DNA of 32,219 nucleotides, taken from the IMG/VR virus record IMGVR_UViG_3300035689_000060, positions 1 through 32,219 of that record; one strand, 5' to 3'. Shown piece after piece: positions 1,457-27,458 of this stretch. The notes below the pieces were generated by a model that made no database searches, had not been told where the DNA came from, and saw nothing but the letters and a program-made list of their open reading frames with translations. Positions within the stretch are counted from its first letter, which is position 1. Every line of letters starts with the position of its first letter. The position numbers were made by a program, and so were the translations under genes. Source of the stretch: a virus.

Positions 1457-1708
1457 ATGGAAGAATCAGAGATCTTAAACCCCTTTGGATACGGCAAAGC
1501 CTCAAGAGTCATAGACGAAAACCGAAAGCCTACGGAATGGTGGATAGATTACATTTCTATCAATCAAGTAATAGCAGAGAATGAGTTCTACGTTTTGTTT
1601 GAAGATGGCTTCCTGATCAAGAAGGGAAAGTCAAAGTTCCAAAGCAGTCAATACCTGAAAGGGGATAGGTTTAGATCCTTCAGGGATTTTCATGAACAGG
1701 TAGGGTAA
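1457..1708 (+). CDS. hypothetical protein, first plus-strand gene
   Basis: An 83-residue protein with a Trp/Tyr-rich centre (EWWIDYISINQVIAENEFYV) and a basic C-terminal half (IKKGKSKFQSS). I do not recognise it. It opens the only plus-strand block in the window and no longer ORF competes on the other strand. Start follows GCAGATAAAAAAATGG, an A-rich leader like those of the minus genes. It lies 11 bp before the next gene and is likely co-transcribed with it. Confidence 0.65.
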   Translation: MEESEILNPFGYGKASRVIDENRKPTEWWIDYISINQVIAENEFYVLFEDGFLIKKGKSKFQSSQYLKGDRFRSFRDFHEQVG

Positions 1709-1719
1709 TCCTTTCTTCT

Positions 1720-2016
1720 ATGAAAACTTTTGAAAAACTAGAATTCCTATCTATGGATGATTTTTCCTTTCAAGTATCAGCCTATCTTCTGAGCATTCGT
1801 GAAATGCTTATCAACAAAAATCTGAAGTACGGCAATTCTGCCCTTCAACCCTTGGGTGTGTTCAGTCAGTTGTCCGCAAAAGAAGGACTACTGGTCAGGA
1901 TAGATGACAAACTTAAAAGAATAAAGAATGGCAGCCTTGAAAAGGATGATGAAGATGTCATTAATGATCTTATAGGCTACCTAGTCCTGCTCAAGATTCA
2001 GGATAAAGTTAAATAG
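1720..2016 (+). CDS. Nmad1/DUF1599-like or MazG-like helical protein
   Basis: A 98-residue helical protein with a pattern I associate with the DUF1599/Nmad1 (nucleotide modification associated domain 1) and MazG-like phage proteins: KNLKYGNSALQPLGVFSQ at about 34-51, then LLVRIDDKLKRIKNG at about 57-71 and DDEDVINDLIGYLVLLKI at the end. The acidic ED...D positions would suit metal and nucleotide binding, as in all-alpha NTP pyrophosphatases. If the Nmad1 link holds, it would fit the DNA modification genes on the other strand. Family assignment is from memory and tentative; substrate unknown. Confidence 0.6.
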   Translation: MKTFEKLEFLSMDDFSFQVSAYLLSIREMLINKNLKYGNSALQPLGVFSQLSAKEGLLVRIDDKLKRIKNGSLEKDDEDVINDLIGYLVLLKIQDKVK

Positions 2017-2091
2017 AGTTTACAAAAAGGGGGTAGAATGTAAGATATCCTACGCATTAAAGAGAAAAAATAAACTAATGAATGAATAATT

Positions 2092-2289
2092 ATGCCTGAT
2101 ATTACGATGTGCATGGGGACAAATTGTCCCTACAGAGAAGGATGCTACAGGTTTACCGCTAAGCCGGGAGACTATCAATCGTACTTCATGACCCCACCAT
2201 TTACTAAGGATGGCTGTGAGATGTATTGGGGTGATACCCAGTCACAGATCTGGAATCAGCTTCAGGATATACTCAAAAAAAAGGAATAG
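2092..2289 (+). CDS. small cysteine-rich protein
   Basis: A 65-residue protein with four Cys in the first 45 residues (C7, C12, C18, C42) in the context MCMGTNCPYREGCYRF, followed by SYFMTPPFTKDGCEMYWGD. The spacing suggests a small metal-binding site. Related short proteins occur in Bacteroidota phages, but I know of no function. The gap before it (2017-2091) shows no other gene. It is the last gene of the plus-strand block. Confidence 0.65.
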   Translation: MPDITMCMGTNCPYREGCYRFTAKPGDYQSYFMTPPFTKDGCEMYWGDTQSQIWNQLQDILKKKE

Positions 2290-2292
2290 AAC

Positions 2293-2311
2293 TGTAGACA
2301 ACTTGTCTACA
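2293..2311. repeat. 19-bp near-perfect palindrome
   Basis: TGTAGACAA-C-TTGTCTACA: two 9-bp perfect arms around a single base, 3 bp after the stop of the plus-strand Cys-rich gene. It may be a protein-binding operator, because the loop is too short for a good terminator as written (a hairpin would need to open the inner pairs), or part of the transcript end of the plus block. No U-run follows. Confidence 0.55.
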
Positions 2312-2333
2312 CTTGGTAAAAATTCATGCACTT

Positions 2334-2352
2334 ATTCGGAAAAAAACCGAAT
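2334..2352. terminator. weak hairpin between convergent genes
   Basis: ATTCGG-A7-CCGAAT: a 6-bp stem with an A-only (U-only on the minus strand) loop, located between the convergent 65-aa plus gene and the 81-aa minus gene and touching the latter's stop codon at 2352-2354. A weak bidirectional terminator is the natural reading, but there is no U-tract after the stem. Confidence 0.35.
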
Positions 2353-2597
2353 TAGTCTAGCTGCCCTTCCTGATCAAGGTGAAGCAGTTCATCCCGGATT
2401 TCTTGGTAACTGCCCCGAATCAGGCAGGAGGTTTTATCATAAAAGTACATGACCTGTATATCATTCACCAACTCCTGCACATAGGCGATATCCTCTATCC
2501 TAACCATGCGCCTAACAAATTCATGCTTAACTTCTAGGCCTAGTTCTTTCCAGTCCATCGTGCTACCTGCTAGCATTACATCGATTTCAATCCACAT
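2352..2597 (-). CDS. hypothetical protein
   Basis: An 81-residue acidic protein (MWIEIDVMLAGSTMDWKELG...), predicted mixed alpha/beta, with one Cys. I do not recognise it. It is the last gene of the long minus-strand run and starts one base after the stop of the spanin-like gene, so it is very probably translated from the same message. Confidence 0.6.
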   Translation of the reverse strand: MWIEIDVMLAGSTMDWKELGLEVKHEFVRRMVRIEDIAYVQELVNDIQVMYFYDKTSCLIRGSYQEIRDELLHLDQEGQLD

Positions 2598-2598
2598 A

Positions 2599-3147
2599 TC
2601 AAAAAAGCTTTTTAGATATCCCCAAGCTGTGAATTTTTGTCACGGGTTGATATCCGTATTGAAATAAATATTTATTGTCCAGATAGGAAACTTTTACGCT
2701 AGGATCAAGAAGGGAATTAACCCCGGCACCTAGGTAGATCCCCTTGGGCTTTTTGATAATTGTCTCTGTTTTTGTTTCGGTTATAGTGTTGGTCACCACA
2801 GGAATCTTGAAATCATTCGTAGCAGTCATTTTTAGGACTTCTCCAAGGACTTCACCGCTCACATGGGTACTTCCATACTCCGAAGGAATGGAGGCCTTAA
2901 ACAGGCTAATTTTAGGCTGATAATTTATTAGGACTGTATCCCTAAGAATCTGTGATTTTATCCACATTTTCGGCACATAAACTGTGTCCCGAACTTGAGT
3001 GTAAATTGTGTCACTTTCTACCTTCGTTTCAAACTTGTATACGGTCTCCTGCTCTGGTCTAGGGTACACCACAAAAGCTAGGATCACCCCTGCAATAAAG
3101 GATAGGATGGCTATCTGAATTTTTTGGTTGTCTGTAGAAAATTCCAT
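2599..3147 (-). CDS. membrane-anchored protein, spanin-like candidate
   Basis: A 182-residue protein. Residues 11-28 (IQIAILSFIAGVILAFVV) form one clear N-terminal membrane anchor with a short cytosolic stretch before it. The rest is a periplasm-type region with repeated DT-x-Y/V motifs (ESDTIYTQVRDTVYVP, RDTVLINY). The C-terminus alternates hydrophobic residues (GIYLGAGVNSLLDPSVKVSYL) and ends LGISKKLF, with the terminal Phe typical of outer-membrane beta signals. Its position behind the endolysin and holin-like genes suggests a role in lysis, perhaps bridging inner and outer membrane. No lipobox is seen and there is no typical coiled-coil spanin domain, so this is inference. Start overlaps the preceding stop (TAATG). 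Confidence 0.6.
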   Translation of the reverse strand: MEFSTDNQKIQIAILSFIAGVILAFVVYPRPEQETVYKFETKVESDTIYTQVRDTVYVPKMWIKSQILRDTVLINYQPKISLFKASIPSEYGSTHVSGEVLGEVLKMTATNDFKIPVVTNTITETKTETIIKKPKGIYLGAGVNSLLDPSVKVSYLDNKYLFQYGYQPVTKIHSLGISKKLF

Positions 3148-3368
3148 TACTGCTCTATGAATAAATTGTCCTGCTCTAGTATTTTTCTAAGTTCTTCACG
3201 GCACCATTTATAAGCCTTGTAAGTTTCGTCACTTAGTTCTTTGTATTTTAGTTCCGATCTTAGCAATTGATCAAAGTCCCAGATGGCACTTTTGTAATTG
3301 TGCCCGTTAATAGCTGCTTGAAAATCTGTATTATCTTCAGGCAAATCAAATTCTAGTATTGCTTTCAT
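3147..3368 (-). CDS. small conserved phage protein
   Basis: A 73-residue helical protein, MKAILEFDLPEDNTDFQAAINGHN then AIWDFDQLLRSELKYKE. This N-terminal pattern (EFDLPED...A..G..Y..A.WD.D..LR..LKY) recurs in short hypothetical proteins of many phages, usually near the end of the late region; the function is unknown. ATGA overlap with the phosphoesterase stop and TAATG overlap with the downstream gene indicate tight translational coupling. Confidence 0.75.
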   Translation of the reverse strand: MKAILEFDLPEDNTDFQAAINGHNYKSAIWDFDQLLRSELKYKELSDETYKAYKWCREELRKILEQDNLFIEQ

Positions 3369-4246
3369 AGTGGGAATTTATTTGAGTCGATTAATAAGTC
3401 ATAATTTTCTGCTCCATCCTTAACAACCCTTCTGCCATTAAAGACTAGAATTCTGCCACCTACAGGTTTAACCGGTGCTCCTCTTTCTATGTGCCATCCC
3501 TGAGACCCATCTCCATATTCTTCTTTGTATGTACCGGTTATGGCTAGGTGAATCTGCCTTTGCTCAAGTTCATAGACTCGCTTACCTTGATTGTAATGCA
3601 AAGAATCCCGGACATCATTACGGCATGAATTTTCATGGATGTGACCCATTACAAATATATCCATGTTCTCATAAATTTCTAGTGCCCTAGTCAAGTTGAT
3701 TGCCCCACGAGTAACAATGCCACCGCCTGCGCTCCCATGAAAATATTTCATAGTCTTGCTCATAGAAGTGCTATGCCTTAATTCATATTTAAAAACAATC
3801 CACCCACCATATCCACCCACATAAACTTGGCTTTTGTTTTTGTAATTTAGTAGATCTACAAATCTCTGGAGGATGTCGGTTTCTTGATATTTTATAATCG
3901 AGGTTTCGTGATTACCGTACCCGATCACAGTCAAGATAGATGCATAAGGGCTGAACCAATCTACGGCAGTTTCCACAATTGAGTCAAGGTACTTGGCATT
4001 GTTATGCTCAGGTAAAATGTCGCTTTTGTTTCCCCTTTTGTCTCCCTTCCCTTGCATTAAACAGAAAAGGTCTCCATTGATGAAGACCGGAATATTCTGC
4101 TCAAGGCAATAATCTAAATGTCGCTTCAGCATTACCCGGTCGCACTTAGGATTATCCCAGTGTAAATCCGAAAGTAAGGCTACACGATTTTCTTCTTTGC
4201 TTAAAGAAATGCTGTGAACATTCCTAGCAATTTTGGTTAGTTCCAT
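3365..4246 (-). CDS. calcineurin-like metallophosphoesterase
   Basis: A 293-residue metallophosphoesterase. All core motifs are visible: D27-L-H29 (SDLHWDN), G58-D59, GNHE at 111-114, H170 (YFHGSAGG), and GHIH at 201-204, together binding two metal ions. The substrate (nucleic acid, nucleotide or protein phosphate) cannot be told from sequence. An ORF extension to 4339 exists, but the start at 4246 is preferred because its ATG overlaps the endolysin stop as TAATG and the extension would run through the endolysin C-terminus. It sits in the lysis region, an uncommon place for such an enzyme. Confidence 0.88.
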   Translation of the reverse strand: MELTKIARNVHSISLSKEENRVALLSDLHWDNPKCDRVMLKRHLDYCLEQNIPVFINGDLFCLMQGKGDKRGNKSDILPEHNNAKYLDSIVETAVDWFSPYASILTVIGYGNHETSIIKYQETDILQRFVDLLNYKNKSQVYVGGYGGWIVFKYELRHSTSMSKTMKYFHGSAGGGIVTRGAINLTRALEIYENMDIFVMGHIHENSCRNDVRDSLHYNQGKRVYELEQRQIHLAITGTYKEEYGDGSQGWHIERGAPVKPVGGRILVFNGRRVVKDGAENYDLLIDSNKFPL

Positions 4247-4707
4247 TAAATGGGTATATAGGTTGTTTTGCCTCCCGACCGAACGGCCTTTAGCTTTTGC
4301 TTTCTGTTTCCGCTTTTCACGAATGAGACATGAACCCAATCAGGGTTAAAGTCTGTGCCAAACTCCCAAATCAATTGATCAAAGTCTAGCTTATTTTTTA
4401 TGAAATCAAATACCATTCTGTTGGTCACTTCTCCATTCCCTCCATCCATATCGATATCTATGGCTTGCCCCTTACAATGCTGAGACGATGCGCTACCTTT
4501 TATGAAAGCATTTAAAGCCTTTGATCTGTACCCACTCGAGATAAAAATAGGTACCCCGAAGTGTTCCCGGATAGGCTCGAATACCTTATCTGCAAGCAGC
4601 TTGAAGTTCTCAAGATGCTCTGCCGTTGGGGTGTTGTCTATTCCGTGTCTCTTGGCTGTGTCACTTCTGGTGATTTCAGCAAGATTAAGATGGGGACTGA
4701 TTTTCAT
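4246..4707 (-). CDS. M15-family peptidase endolysin
   Basis: A 153-residue zinc peptidase of the Peptidase_M15_3 / D-alanyl-D-alanine carboxypeptidase-like type that cleaves peptidoglycan cross-links. Visible motifs: SGYRS (58-62), SSQHCKGQAIDID with zinc ligands H77 and D84, and WVHVS with the third ligand H126. There is no signal peptide, so release would need a holin. The start overlaps the holin-like gene by 23 bp, and the stop overlaps the phosphoesterase start (TAATG). The last 25 residues are basic (KSGNRKQKLKAVRSGGK). Confidence 0.92.
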   Translation of the reverse strand: MKISPHLNLAEITRSDTAKRHGIDNTPTAEHLENFKLLADKVFEPIREHFGVPIFISSGYRSKALNAFIKGSASSQHCKGQAIDIDMDGGNGEVTNRMVFDFIKNKLDFDQLIWEFGTDFNPDWVHVSFVKSGNRKQKLKAVRSGGKTTYIPI

Positions 4708-4921
4708 TTTTGTCTGTAGGTTTTTTAAATATCTTTTCGGCAGCCGTGATCCCCAAAGCAGCAGCAGACAGGGCAGCTACTGAATAGACTAAAGGTTCGT
4801 TTTGATTTCTGATAAGAGTATAGGATAAAGCAATTGCACTAATTACACCTACTAGCCTTTTGCTAGAAGCTTCACCACTTTCAGATAGAAATCCTTTTGC
4901 CCATTTAAAGAAGTTTTTCAT
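4685..4921 (-). CDS. holin-like small membrane protein
   Basis: A 78-residue protein with two likely membrane helices (about 22-39, RLVGVISAIALSYTLI, and 46-64, VYSVAALSAAALGITAAE), an amphipathic N-terminus and a charged hydrophilic tail (KKPTDKNENQSPS). This size and topology, and the position directly upstream of the endolysin with overlapping frames, suit a class II-type holin. ATGA overlap with the 41-aa basic protein. Holins are poorly conserved, so the call rests on topology and context. Confidence 0.7.
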   Translation of the reverse strand: MKNFFKWAKGFLSESGEASSKRLVGVISAIALSYTLIRNQNEPLVYSVAALSAAALGITAAEKIFKKPTDKNENQSPS

Positions 4922-5043
4922 CTGCCTTGTCCCCTGTATTTTTTAGGCTTGTTTAAACTTTTTGAATAGGACTTTTTTGCCTTTCCATTTCTCCTTTTAC
5001 CGAAGCTAATTTTGATCTGCGCTACTGCCTTAGCCTTTGCCAT
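4918..5043 (-). CDS. 41-aa basic protein ending RGQGR
   Basis: A 41-residue strongly basic protein (MAKAKAVAQIKISFGKRRNG..., ending KKYRGQGR). Short basic proteins with this KxYRGQGR ending occur in Bacteroidota phages near the connector or lysis genes; function unknown, nucleic-acid or membrane-surface binding are possible. Start ATG 5043-5041 overlaps the end of the 62-aa membrane gene; the stop overlaps the holin start as ATGA, which supports it as a real gene. Confidence 0.75.
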   Translation of the reverse strand: MAKAKAVAQIKISFGKRRNGKAKKSYSKSLNKPKKYRGQGR

Positions 5044-5218
5044 TGCTTTTCTTTATTTCTGCCCGTAACTTATAACCCAAATAAATAATTGAAAGAATAG
5101 AAATAATGGATGTAAAAACTACGTTTACAAATTGAAGCCCAGCCATAGCCGTGACATTGGCAAACATTGCCAAGAAGGTGGAGGGTACTCCGAGTTCATC
5201 GCTTTTCAATATATTCAT
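5030..5218 (-). CDS. small membrane protein, possible second holin/antiholin
   Basis: A 62-residue protein with a hydrophobic middle (about 14-50, containing AMFANVTAMAGLQFVNVVF and SIISILSIIYLGYKL) long enough for two short membrane helices, and a basic tail (KLRAEIKKSNGKG). It lies just upstream of the 41-aa protein and the holin-like gene. It could be an antiholin, a second holin or a structural membrane protein. Start is 4 bp after the upstream stop. Confidence 0.65.
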   Translation of the reverse strand: MNILKSDELGVPSTFLAMFANVTAMAGLQFVNVVFTSIISILSIIYLGYKLRAEIKKSNGKG

Positions 5219-5222
5219 CTCT

Positions 5223-5657
5223 TTAATTAGTTGGAACTTGACAAAGGTTCAAAGGAATAGGAGCAGTTATTTCTATGTCAATACTTACCCCGGCTGCAAA
5301 GTCATCAAAGCGTTCCTGAAAGAATTCTACAGATGCCTGTGGAGGTGTATTAAATGAGTAGGTATTATCTAGTTTTAATTTTGCCAAAACATCCAATGCT
5401 ACTAAAAGCTGATCGCTTTGAACCTGAAGCCTATTGCTTTTATCTTCAGTCAAGAGATCCGCAAACAGAAGCACCAAGCGATATCGCATAGTAGTATTTG
5501 AATACTGCGAAGGCCTTACAACTGTCCAAAAAACAGGGTAGACAATTTCACCCCCGTTATCTGTGTAGTCATAAATATCACCCTCTCCGAACGTCCGGAT
5601 CATCGGATGCGCTTCTTGGATTGCTTTTAGTTTTGCTACTAGATTTGCTAGGGTCAT
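5223..5657 (-). CDS. putative tail completion/terminator protein
   Basis: A 144-residue protein with a family pattern I know from Bacteroidota phages: LLFADLLTEDKSNRLQVQSD in the middle, then SVEFFQERFDDFAAGVSIDI and a C-terminal PIPLNLCQVP. It follows the portal and connector genes, the usual place for neck or tail-terminator proteins, and its size suits a gpU/gp17-like fold. Function is inferred from position. A 54-bp gap separates it from the connector gene. Confidence 0.65.
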   Translation of the reverse strand: MTLANLVAKLKAIQEAHPMIRTFGEGDIYDYTDNGGEIVYPVFWTVVRPSQYSNTTMRYRLVLLFADLLTEDKSNRLQVQSDQLLVALDVLAKLKLDNTYSFNTPPQASVEFFQERFDDFAAGVSIDIEITAPIPLNLCQVPTN

Positions 5658-26303: not shown

Positions 26304-26761
26304 GATCTAATTTTTTTAATTGTGATAAAAATTGAAGTGTGTGGGATTCCTGTTTGCTTACTTACCTTCCGGACTGAGCCAAGTTCCACATATAAACTTA
26401 GGATCTCCTGATCGTACCAATACAAGCCCTGCACTATCTTTGCTATCCCATCCGCTACTTCTTGACTGTTATCGATTTGCTGTTCTTCTTTTACGAACTT
26501 CATAATATCCTCCACAGGTACAAGGCTCCCGTATAGCCTGCCAAACTTCCCGTACTTTGAATTCGTTTGATTGCAGCAGATTCGCACTATCCAGAACTTG
26601 AAGACCTGCTTTCCTTTGGCTTCTAGTTCCCTGAGTTTGTCTGCATCATACTCCAGGACTATGACTGCTACCTCCTGCCTGAGATCTTCCCATAAGTCTT
26701 TCCCTATATTCTGAAATACATATTTAAACTCCTGATCGTATAGCCATCCTATCGCTTTCAT
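26276..26761 (-). CDS. sigma-70-like transcription factor
   Basis: A 161-residue protein with an N-terminal helical region like sigma region 2 (LWEDLRQEVAVIVLEYDADKL, KFWIVRICCNQTNS) and a C-terminal region 4-like HTH (YDQEILSLYVELGSVRKVSKQ, then GIPHTSIFITIKKIRSC). This resembles short phage sigma-like factors. It may redirect host RNA polymerase to late genes. The longer frame to 26821 was rejected, because ATG 26761 overlaps the upstream stop as ATGA. Its target promoters are unknown. Confidence 0.65.
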   Translation of the reverse strand: MKAIGWLYDQEFKYVFQNIGKDLWEDLRQEVAVIVLEYDADKLRELEAKGKQVFKFWIVRICCNQTNSKYGKFGRLYGSLVPVEDIMKFVKEEQQIDNSQEVADGIAKIVQGLYWYDQEILSLYVELGSVRKVSKQTGIPHTSIFITIKKIRSCIKSQLVY

Positions 26762-27009
26762 TTTAGGCTGATTACTTCGCCTGTGGGAAGCCCTGCAAAA
26801 TCGCAAAGCCATCCATTCCATTCAAACCTGATCTCCTTCTCACGGCCGTAATATGAGGCTGCTAGGAGTCTTATCTGCCTCTGGACTATCTCTATACTTT
26901 GAAAGCTACCTTTTCCCTTATTCATCCATGCAGACCATTCACCGCTTGAAAGCTTGTAGCGGATTTCAAGTGAATAATCTAGTGATGATTTGGGAAGCCC
27001 TCTAGCCAT
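26758..27009 (-). CDS. hypothetical protein
   Basis: An 83-residue protein, basic first half with LEIRYKLSSGEWSAW and a Trp/Phe-rich second half (IRFEWNGWLCDFAGLPTGEV). No motif recognised. It is the first gene after the structured RNA region and overlaps the sigma-like start as ATGA. Its start follows an A-rich leader (AATAGAAAATGG). Confidence 0.6.
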   Translation of the reverse strand: MARGLPKSSLDYSLEIRYKLSSGEWSAWMNKGKGSFQSIEIVQRQIRLLAASYYGREKEIRFEWNGWLCDFAGLPTGEVISLK

Positions 27010-27040: not shown

Positions 27041-27050
27041 GTAATAAGAA

Positions 27051-27106
27051 AGGCTACCTACTAACAACTCACATCCCAATTGTAGGCAGGTGGGATCACT
27101 TAGCCT
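27051..27106 (-). ncRNA. H-type pseudoknot RNA candidate
   Basis: Three perfectly complementary segments, interleaved. Outer stem AGGCTA (27051-27056) with TAGCCT (27101-27106); CCTAC (27057-27061) with GTAGG (27082-27086); ATCCCA (27073-27078) with TGGGAT (27091-27096). The last two cross, making an H-type pseudoknot inside a closing stem, in 56 nt. It begins 2 nt after the tRNA-like element on the minus strand. Function unknown; it could be regulatory or part of one RNA with the tRNA-like fold. Confidence 0.5.
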
Positions 27107-27108
27107 CG

Positions 27109-27213
27109 TAGTCATGGCAGGATTCCAACCTGCACGCACAAATATAGGGTATCTCATTGTGCCATCACTTTTACAAGCAGTTCCGATGTGTGTCTACATT
27201 CCACCACATGACT
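27109..27213 (-). tRNA. tRNA-like element (type II, aberrant anticodon arm)
   Basis: A 105-nt minus-strand cloverleaf. A perfect 7-bp acceptor AGTCATG/CATGACT with discriminator A; D arm GTG-N9-CAC in a Leu-like context (TGGTGGAATGTAGACAC); a long variable arm GCACAA/TTGTGC; and a perfect T arm GCAGG-TTGGAAT-CCTGC. The anticodon arm is abnormal: stem CATCG/TGATG (one G-U) encloses 16 nt instead of 7. The T loop has G in place of the invariant C56, and the D loop carries only one G of the usual GG. No CCA is encoded. It is probably a degenerate or decoy tRNA rather than a decoding one. It starts inside the XRE gene's stop codon. Confidence 0.55.
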
Positions 27214-27412
27214 ATATCTTTTCTTTGATCACTACCTCCAGACCTATAGCCTCACAAATCATCCTAAGATTGAACAGGCTTATGCTTTCCCATCCATTCT
27301 CTACCTGATTGATAGGTGCATGGCTTATCCCCAGCTTCTTGCATAGTTCTAGCTGCGTGTATCCGCTTTTCTTTCTTGATCTTCTAATTAGTAATCCTTC
27401 TTCTACGCTCAT
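27212..27412 (-). CDS. XRE/Cro-like HTH repressor
   Basis: A 66-residue Cro/CI-type repressor. The HTH is clear: YTQLELCKKLGISHAPINQVENGW, about residues 18-41, followed by SLFNLRMICEAIGLEV, standard for HTH_3. There is no dimerisation or protease domain. A strong -7 box and an inverted repeat lie just upstream (27430-27458), so it probably represses itself. Its TAG stop shares two bases with the tRNA-like element, so the same transcript would contain the structured RNA. Confidence 0.85.
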   Translation of the reverse strand: MSVEEGLLIRRSRKKSGYTQLELCKKLGISHAPINQVENGWESISLFNLRMICEAIGLEVVIKEKI

Positions 27413-27429: not shown

Positions 27430-27458
27430 CAAATATAGGATTAAAATTAATATCCTAT
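27430..27458 (-). promoter_or_regulatory. XRE promoter and operator
   Basis: Minus-strand -7 box TATATTTG (27437-27430), exact match to TAnnTTTG. A 7-bp inverted repeat ATAGGAT (27435-27441) / ATCCTAT (27452-27458) with a 10-bp spacer overlaps it, about 20 bp upstream of the XRE start. The repeat half-sites on one face of the helix suit binding of a small Cro-like dimer and autoregulation. No good -33 TTTG at normal spacing was found. Confidence 0.6.

Follow-up and report, generated by a model that had tools for sequence, protein, structure and literature searches.

What does an RNA with the shape of a tRNA, but hardly the means to decode, do in the genome of a lake phage? When a phage genome holds a tRNA that looks odd or whose type is undetermined, it is usually dismissed as a pseudogene. 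An earlier note on the 32,219-nt stretch of viral DNA analysed here (the window; IMG/VR record IMGVR_UViG_3300035689_000060) had described a tRNA-like cloverleaf at 27109-27213 with an expanded anticodon loop, and had left its role between a decoy, an RNA stabiliser and a decaying tRNA. Here we describe the architecture of this element, which we call module A, its relatives and its genomic setting, and weigh the functions that these suggest.

A tRNA-Leu-like cloverleaf with a replaced anticodon arm

Infernal-type scoring, proposed as a check by the earlier note, placed a tRNA-Leu-like cloverleaf at 27213-27109 when the region was searched alone against Rfam, with 33.5 bits for RF00005 (gathering cut-off 29; the E-value of 1.5e-5 refers to 286 bases against all of Rfam). 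The fold is thus present where it had been reported; the strand, previously unstated, is minus, the strand of all main phage genes and of an adjoining HTH repressor-like gene. Our model R1, whose training set includes the window, matched 27109-27214 with 122.5 bits (E 5e-32) and nothing else in the window. The filters of a whole-window Rfam scan missed the cloverleaf, and ARAGORN made no call for it, nor did it find a tRNA for module A with introns allowed at the default score. In a cmscan of the region at E<=10 nothing but tRNA exceeded its gathering score, and the Rfam scans gave no match to the tmRNA model RF00023 at module A. As the folding energy of the window copy alone is not unusual (z -0.84), the case for module A depends on its relatives. 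Its parts, all on the minus strand, are as follows:

27109..27214 (-), tRNA-like RNA element (module A), U(-1) to A73, from Rfam, model R1 and covariation
27207..27213 (-), acceptor stem 5' strand AGTCATG, pairing with 27116-27110
27190..27204 (-), D arm GTG-GAATGTAGA-CAC, supported by covariation in relatives
27163..27188 (-), module replacing the anticodon arm, CATC [GGAACT] GCTT GTAA AAGT GATG, from covariation and identity in relatives
27136..27162 (-), long variable-arm hairpin GCACAA...TTGTGC with a conserved loop, supported by compensatory changes
27117..27133 (-), T arm GCAGG-TTGGAAT-CCTGC, the stem covarying at three pairs
27110..27116 (-), acceptor stem 3' strand CATGACT, with A73 next to it at 27109

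The acceptor, D and T arms are all present. The 7-bp acceptor stem stood as described, except that its register had been off by one; the correct pairing is AGTCATG/CATGACT followed by the discriminator A73. The reported change of T-loop C56 to G (TTGGAAT) and the shortening of the D loop (GAATGTAGA against GAATTGGTAGA) were both confirmed. The D loop lacks GG and is shorter than that of tRNA-Leu, and the conserved elbow, formed by a D-loop GG and a TTCRANY T loop, is therefore absent from module A.

The largest departure from a tRNA lies in the anticodon arm. Between the strands of the "anticodon" stem there are 16-18 nt, as opposed to the 5-bp stem and 7-nt loop with U33 of a tRNA. What had been taken for a 16-nt anticodon loop is not an anticodon loop, and the segment is better read as a stem that leads through an asymmetric bulge to a capped hairpin, which in RNA reads CAUC-[GGAACU]-GCUU-GUAA-AAGU-GAUG. 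The outer stem covaries among the relatives (CG/UA and CG/AU) and the 6-nt bulge GGAACU is invariant. The hairpin cap occurs as GUAA, GUUAA and GUCAA, variants that would fit a GNRA-like loop with an optional flipped-out base. The inner 4-bp helix GCUU/AAGU is invariant throughout the 30-relative alignment, so its support comes from prediction and from a single change, in L410, of its first pair from G-U to A-U. With the anticodon loop absent and the elbow contacts gone and drifting, the earlier view that a decoding tRNA is unlikely holds. Two other readings of this arm were considered and rejected. An intron in the anticodon loop would make the insert the most conserved segment of the element, and ARAGORN with introns was negative. 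Mimicry of tRNA-Tyr through the loop (UUGUAAAA) is rejected as well, since the GUUAA and GUCAA that some relatives carry instead of GUAA break the GUA anticodon while suiting a GNRA-like cap.

Aligning 30 distinct relatives on the cloverleaf left 97.3% of cells paired, as compared with just 31-47% when the structure was slid along the alignment. Every helix is kept and five helices covary, with compensatory changes at 15 of 31 pairs; those in the acceptor and T stems answer the covariation check that the earlier note had called for. The covariation score of 0.233 exceeds that of shuffles (0.095) and was reached by none of 500 shuffles, and RNAalifold independently returned a nearly identical fold. 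In the acceptor, the sixth pair switches between GC, UA and UG in 12 of the 30 relatives and the fourth between CG and UA, and 25 of the 30 can form an additional U(-1):A73 pair. The middle pair of the D stem is UA in 20 relatives and CG in 10, and the variable arm shows compensatory changes at all seven of its pairs around a conserved loop motif, AGATAACCTTA.

Few parts of a tRNA are as conserved as the T loop. In module A it is the least conserved region (identity 0.56-0.60), with 16 versions among the 30 relatives, and the "anticodon loop" varies least. In a set of 14 relatives recruited without use of the loop sequence, identity was 0.98 for the inner part of the replacement module, 0.87 for the variable loop and 0.60 for the T loop. 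Selection on module A is inverted relative to that on a tRNA. Five covarying helices and a replaced arm that is the best conserved part of the molecule speak against the suggestion of a decaying tRNA. Across the wider family described below, a non-TTC T loop occurs in 30 of the 56 members without a D-loop GG and in 8 of the 75 others (Fisher p about 1.5e-7, a value that ignores relatedness and is largely driven by the window's sub-family). We read this as loss of the elbow, then drift, with strong constraint having come to act on the replaced arm. All non-chance occurrences of the replacement module lie inside a tRNA-like body; these bodies include a second one, whose T loop is canonical and whose stem is different (ACCC/GGGT).

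The site between the repressor and an 83-aa gene

Module A lies within a compact set of minus-strand features:

27430..27437 (-), candidate promoter -7 element TATATTTG, from the sequence, upstream of the repressor
27212..27412 (-), 66-aa HTH repressor-like gene (PF01381, E 8e-10)
27050..27107 (-), module B, a separate 58-nt pseudoknotted RNA directly downstream of module A, supported by covariation
26758..27009 (-), 83-aa gene, downstream of both RNA modules

The overlap with the repressor stop codon that had been noted before proved exact: the UAG at 27214-27212 is U(-1)-A1-G2 of module A, a layout that recurs in many relatives. By motif class TATATTTG is presumably a Bacteroidota-type -7 element, and judged from its sequence it likely drives a unit composed of the repressor and the RNA.

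Module B is well supported as an RNA in its own right. Its 12 variants are 99.1% paired, the pseudoknot helix covaries (UA/CG and AU/GC), as does the hairpin, and it had no match in Rfam. Some loci have it together with module A, whereas others lack module A. It is present in at least 37 viral stretches (including L010, L245, L397, L414 and L425), often directly after a tRNA-like element and with a T-rich stretch following. Module B may be a terminator or a 3'-end protector.

The 83-aa gene, which had no match in Pfam or PHROG, served as the anchor by which relatives of the locus were located. Among 56 distinct intergenic regions between repressor and 83-aa gene, 25 are empty, 10 hold both modules, 8 module A only and 6 module B only; one of these last (L125) additionally carries a different tRNA-like element. 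The remainder contain small genes, an HNH gene or a tRNA-like element other than module A. The repressor ORF of several relatives extends to the start of the 83-aa gene with no spacer between them, which indicates that the RNA cassettes were inserted precisely where the repressor gene ends. About half of the close relatives are without the element, and module A is therefore dispensable. No integrase was present among the ten genes scanned around module A (24-30 kb). At the same intergenic site in L203, L171 and L105, a homing-type HNH-like gene adjoins a tRNA-like element, with a duplicated CATGACTAC end, which points to an insertion hot spot there.

A phage RNA family with constant ends and exchanged middles

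Module A falls within a broader set of phage RNAs, defined by a Leu-like 5' half (TGGYGGAA..GACRC) and a pairing T arm and acceptor around a middle that is not an anticodon arm; we call them tRNA-bodied cargo RNAs. A pattern for the D arm only found 62 viral stretches. Downstream of it, a perfect 7-bp acceptor and 5-bp T arm were present in 25 of 36 unique non-window cases, a few of which are ordinary tRNA-Leu, compared with 0.17% of shuffles. At least 10 different acceptor sequences occur among these matches. The acceptor AGTCAGG accounts for 10 of these 25; its dominance among the elements collected is partly ascertainment because this sequence was a search key. The pattern TAGTCAGGTGGYGGAAT found at least 120 IMG/VR stretches with the ends of module A.

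Scripted searches of the fetched loci yielded about 200 distinct non-canonical elements. Where a tRNA has its anticodon and variable arms these elements carry a middle, and the middles fall into about 106 unrelated clusters; in the first set measured their length was 17-140 nt. Orthologues have conserved middles. The body is retained: a T stands at position 48 in 100 of the 104 cluster representatives, which fits the retention of a tRNA-Leu core, a D-loop GG occurs together with a TTC T loop in 67 members, and most have A73. The D loop is a second site of exchange, and its inserts assort independently of the middles: one insert of 33 nt occurs beside three unrelated middles, another beside two. 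L356, considered as a D-armless member, proved to carry a D-loop insert instead. As a class the middles show mild structure only (mean fold z -0.83), and we found neither a convincing sequence motif common to them nor a partner protein common to unrelated carriers across the family. Antisense action of module A on its own genome was rejected, since the best complementarity of its replacement module there was no better than that of shuffled loops.

In 11 of 11 multi-copy phage records searched, all copies lie on one strand; about three quarters of the elements run in the same direction as each flanking gene, and overlap with an ORF of at least 150 aa is seen in 4 of 210. The motif TAnnTTTG, which we take to be a -7 type promoter element of Bacteroidota, lies no more than 15 nt upstream of 18 of the 210, with 1.4 expected. 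Some genomes are rich in copies. In a 4-kb segment of one (G006, locus L430, positions 1500-5600) there are nine or so elements whose ends are almost identical and whose middles are mostly unrelated, and no canonical tRNA was called there. Another (G001) has seven or so interspersed with a large tRNA complement.

Two recurrent features were seen alongside these. A second conserved middle, found in L007, L121, L215, L223, L235 and L269, consists of a 7-bp covarying stem (CATACAA/TTGTATG and variants) around GAGTTCTGCRGGCTC; its D and T loops are canonical, and the L007 copy occupies the genomic spot of the window element. In L427, L428, L426, L267 and L292 a short hairpin with a varying stem and a GAAAGA or GAATAGA loop lies about 5 nt upstream; the loop motif is present in 21 of the non-canonical set, and the hairpin is a possible processing signal.

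Bacterial genomes hold almost no such elements. A search of 257 Gb of prokaryote genomes returned 20 matches, of which about 6 are real elements, all in MAG contigs. Among isolate phages (INPHARED), the best whole-query matches, which this verdict covers, were rejected as ordinary tRNAs or as cyanophage tRNA-Leu pieces beside an integrase; weaker matches were inspected in part. A text search of the open-access literature found no account of phage tRNA-bodied RNAs with replaced anticodon limbs. The family of tRNA-ended, middle-swapped phage RNAs is apparently both widespread and undescribed.

Likely function and its alternatives

Several known RNAs resemble module A in part. It shares with tRNA-Leu (RF00005) the acceptor, D and T arms, A73, T48, a GAAT..TAGAC D loop and a long variable arm; unlike tRNA-Leu, it has a conserved bulged hairpin in place of the anticodon loop, and its sub-family has a drifting T loop and no GG in the D loop. 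With tmRNA (RF00023) it has in common tRNA-like ends and the replacement of the anticodon limb by other RNA. However, tmRNA is some 230-400 nt long, whereas module A has 106 nt, a formed D stem and U-A instead of G-U as third pair, and lacks both a tag reading frame and an RF00023 match. A tmRNA-like gene (RF00023, 68.5 bits) was seen in L278 (5724-6218), inside a large tRNA array that also holds family elements. The bacterial Y RNA YrlA is a noncoding tRNA mimic with D- and T-arm features; module A differs in its intact acceptor stem and tRNA termini, and its Rfam match is to tRNA only. No Ro60 gene was seen near module A in a non-systematic look. The stable RNAs C and D of phage T4 (species 1 and 2) are small phage RNAs in a tRNA cluster, and T4 rnaC (NC_000866 70908-71046) ends in a perfect T arm, CCGGG-TTCGAAT-CCCGG. 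No counterpart of the acceptor or D arm was found in RNA C by eye and it scored 17.5 bits for tRNA-Sec; with a T arm alone in common, RNAs C and D were rejected as family members. In engineered tRNA scaffolds, an arbitrary RNA in the anticodon limb is stabilised by the tRNA body. Module A, in contrast, is natural and phage-borne, and its cargo is conserved and covarying.

We favour, as the somewhat more probable account, that the tRNA body is a scaffold for processing and stability and that the exchangeable module carries the function. The acceptor, D and T arms of tRNA-Leu would be kept as a closed scaffold, and the conserved folded module in place of the anticodon and variable arms would be the functional part. 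Module A, beginning at the repressor stop codon, would be co-transcribed with the repressor from the repressor promoter. Its tRNA-like ends would most likely allow host tRNA-maturation enzymes, presumably RNases P and Z, to release and protect a stable RNA, in which the bulge GGAACU, the GNRA-capped hairpin and the variable-arm loop may form a surface that serves as ligand or decoy for a factor of the host or of a competitor. The lost G19-C56 elbow of the window's sub-family weakens this scaffold model, as it would weaken RNase P/Z or CCA handling. Also against it are the dispensability of module A, the mild structure of the middles as a class, and the failure to find a target by complementarity in its own genome or a partner protein common to the family.

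The main rival, which we consider unlikely, is that the tRNA body is itself active, as a decoy or sponge for LeuRS, EF-Tu, RNase P/Z or a tRNA-targeting defence nuclease, with the middle serving only to block use in translation. Phage tRNAs are known to counter the tRNA-cutting defences PrrC and PARIS, and this precedent, the Leu-type core of most members and the position of multi-copy elements among large tRNA sets all favour such a role. Members whose core is intact suit it better than does the sub-family of the window, which has lost the elbow and combines a freely drifting T loop with a nearly invariant middle. The conservation of middles between orthologues is a further difficulty, and an anticodon-loop nuclease decoy is opposed by the removal of the very loop that is usually cleaved. 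A regulatory element in the 3' UTR, whose fold or cleavage controls the repressor mRNA, would explain the exact and recurrent placement of the stop codon on U(-1)A1G2; if RNase P cleaved ahead of A1, the UAG would be severed and a non-stop mRNA would result. Yet other members have their own promoters or lie beside unrelated genes, and nearly half of the distinct intergenic regions at the same spot are without an insert, which makes this account improbable.

The remaining two explanations deny the RNA a function, or deny that RNA is what matters. Degenerate T and D loops and a patchy presence are what functionless debris of a tRNA-Leu or of a selfish tRNA gene would leave, but compensatory changes in 15 pairs, a middle that is the best conserved part and promoters at the 5' end of some members render this origin very improbable. 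We give equally little credence to a DNA-level element, that is, a site of recombination or integration, or a mobile cassette with inverted-repeat ends that resemble a tRNA. Ends far more conserved than the cargo, different RNAs and HNH genes at one spot, and tRNA-Leu pieces in cyanophage attP sites are in its favour. Against it, all copies in 11 phages lie on a single strand, the changes are compensatory and do not preserve identity, and the conserved T48 and the promoter placement are intelligible only for an RNA.

Returning to the scaffold with an exchangeable module, we propose tentatively, as a possibility, that freshwater Bacteroidota phages use a fixed tRNA-Leu body with two exchangeable slots, the D loop and the anticodon limb, to field several diversified modules per genome against hosts or rival phages. 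The data suggest that many odd phage tRNAs belong to a large family of structured RNAs in which the tRNA body is constant and the cargo exchanged, and that many of these are located within phage tRNA arrays or next to them. Such RNAs, if expressed, would amount to natural tRNA scaffolds and a new source of phage-host effector RNAs, and would offer a route to understanding why some phage tRNA arrays hold non-decoding RNAs, such as the long-unexplained stable RNAs of T4.
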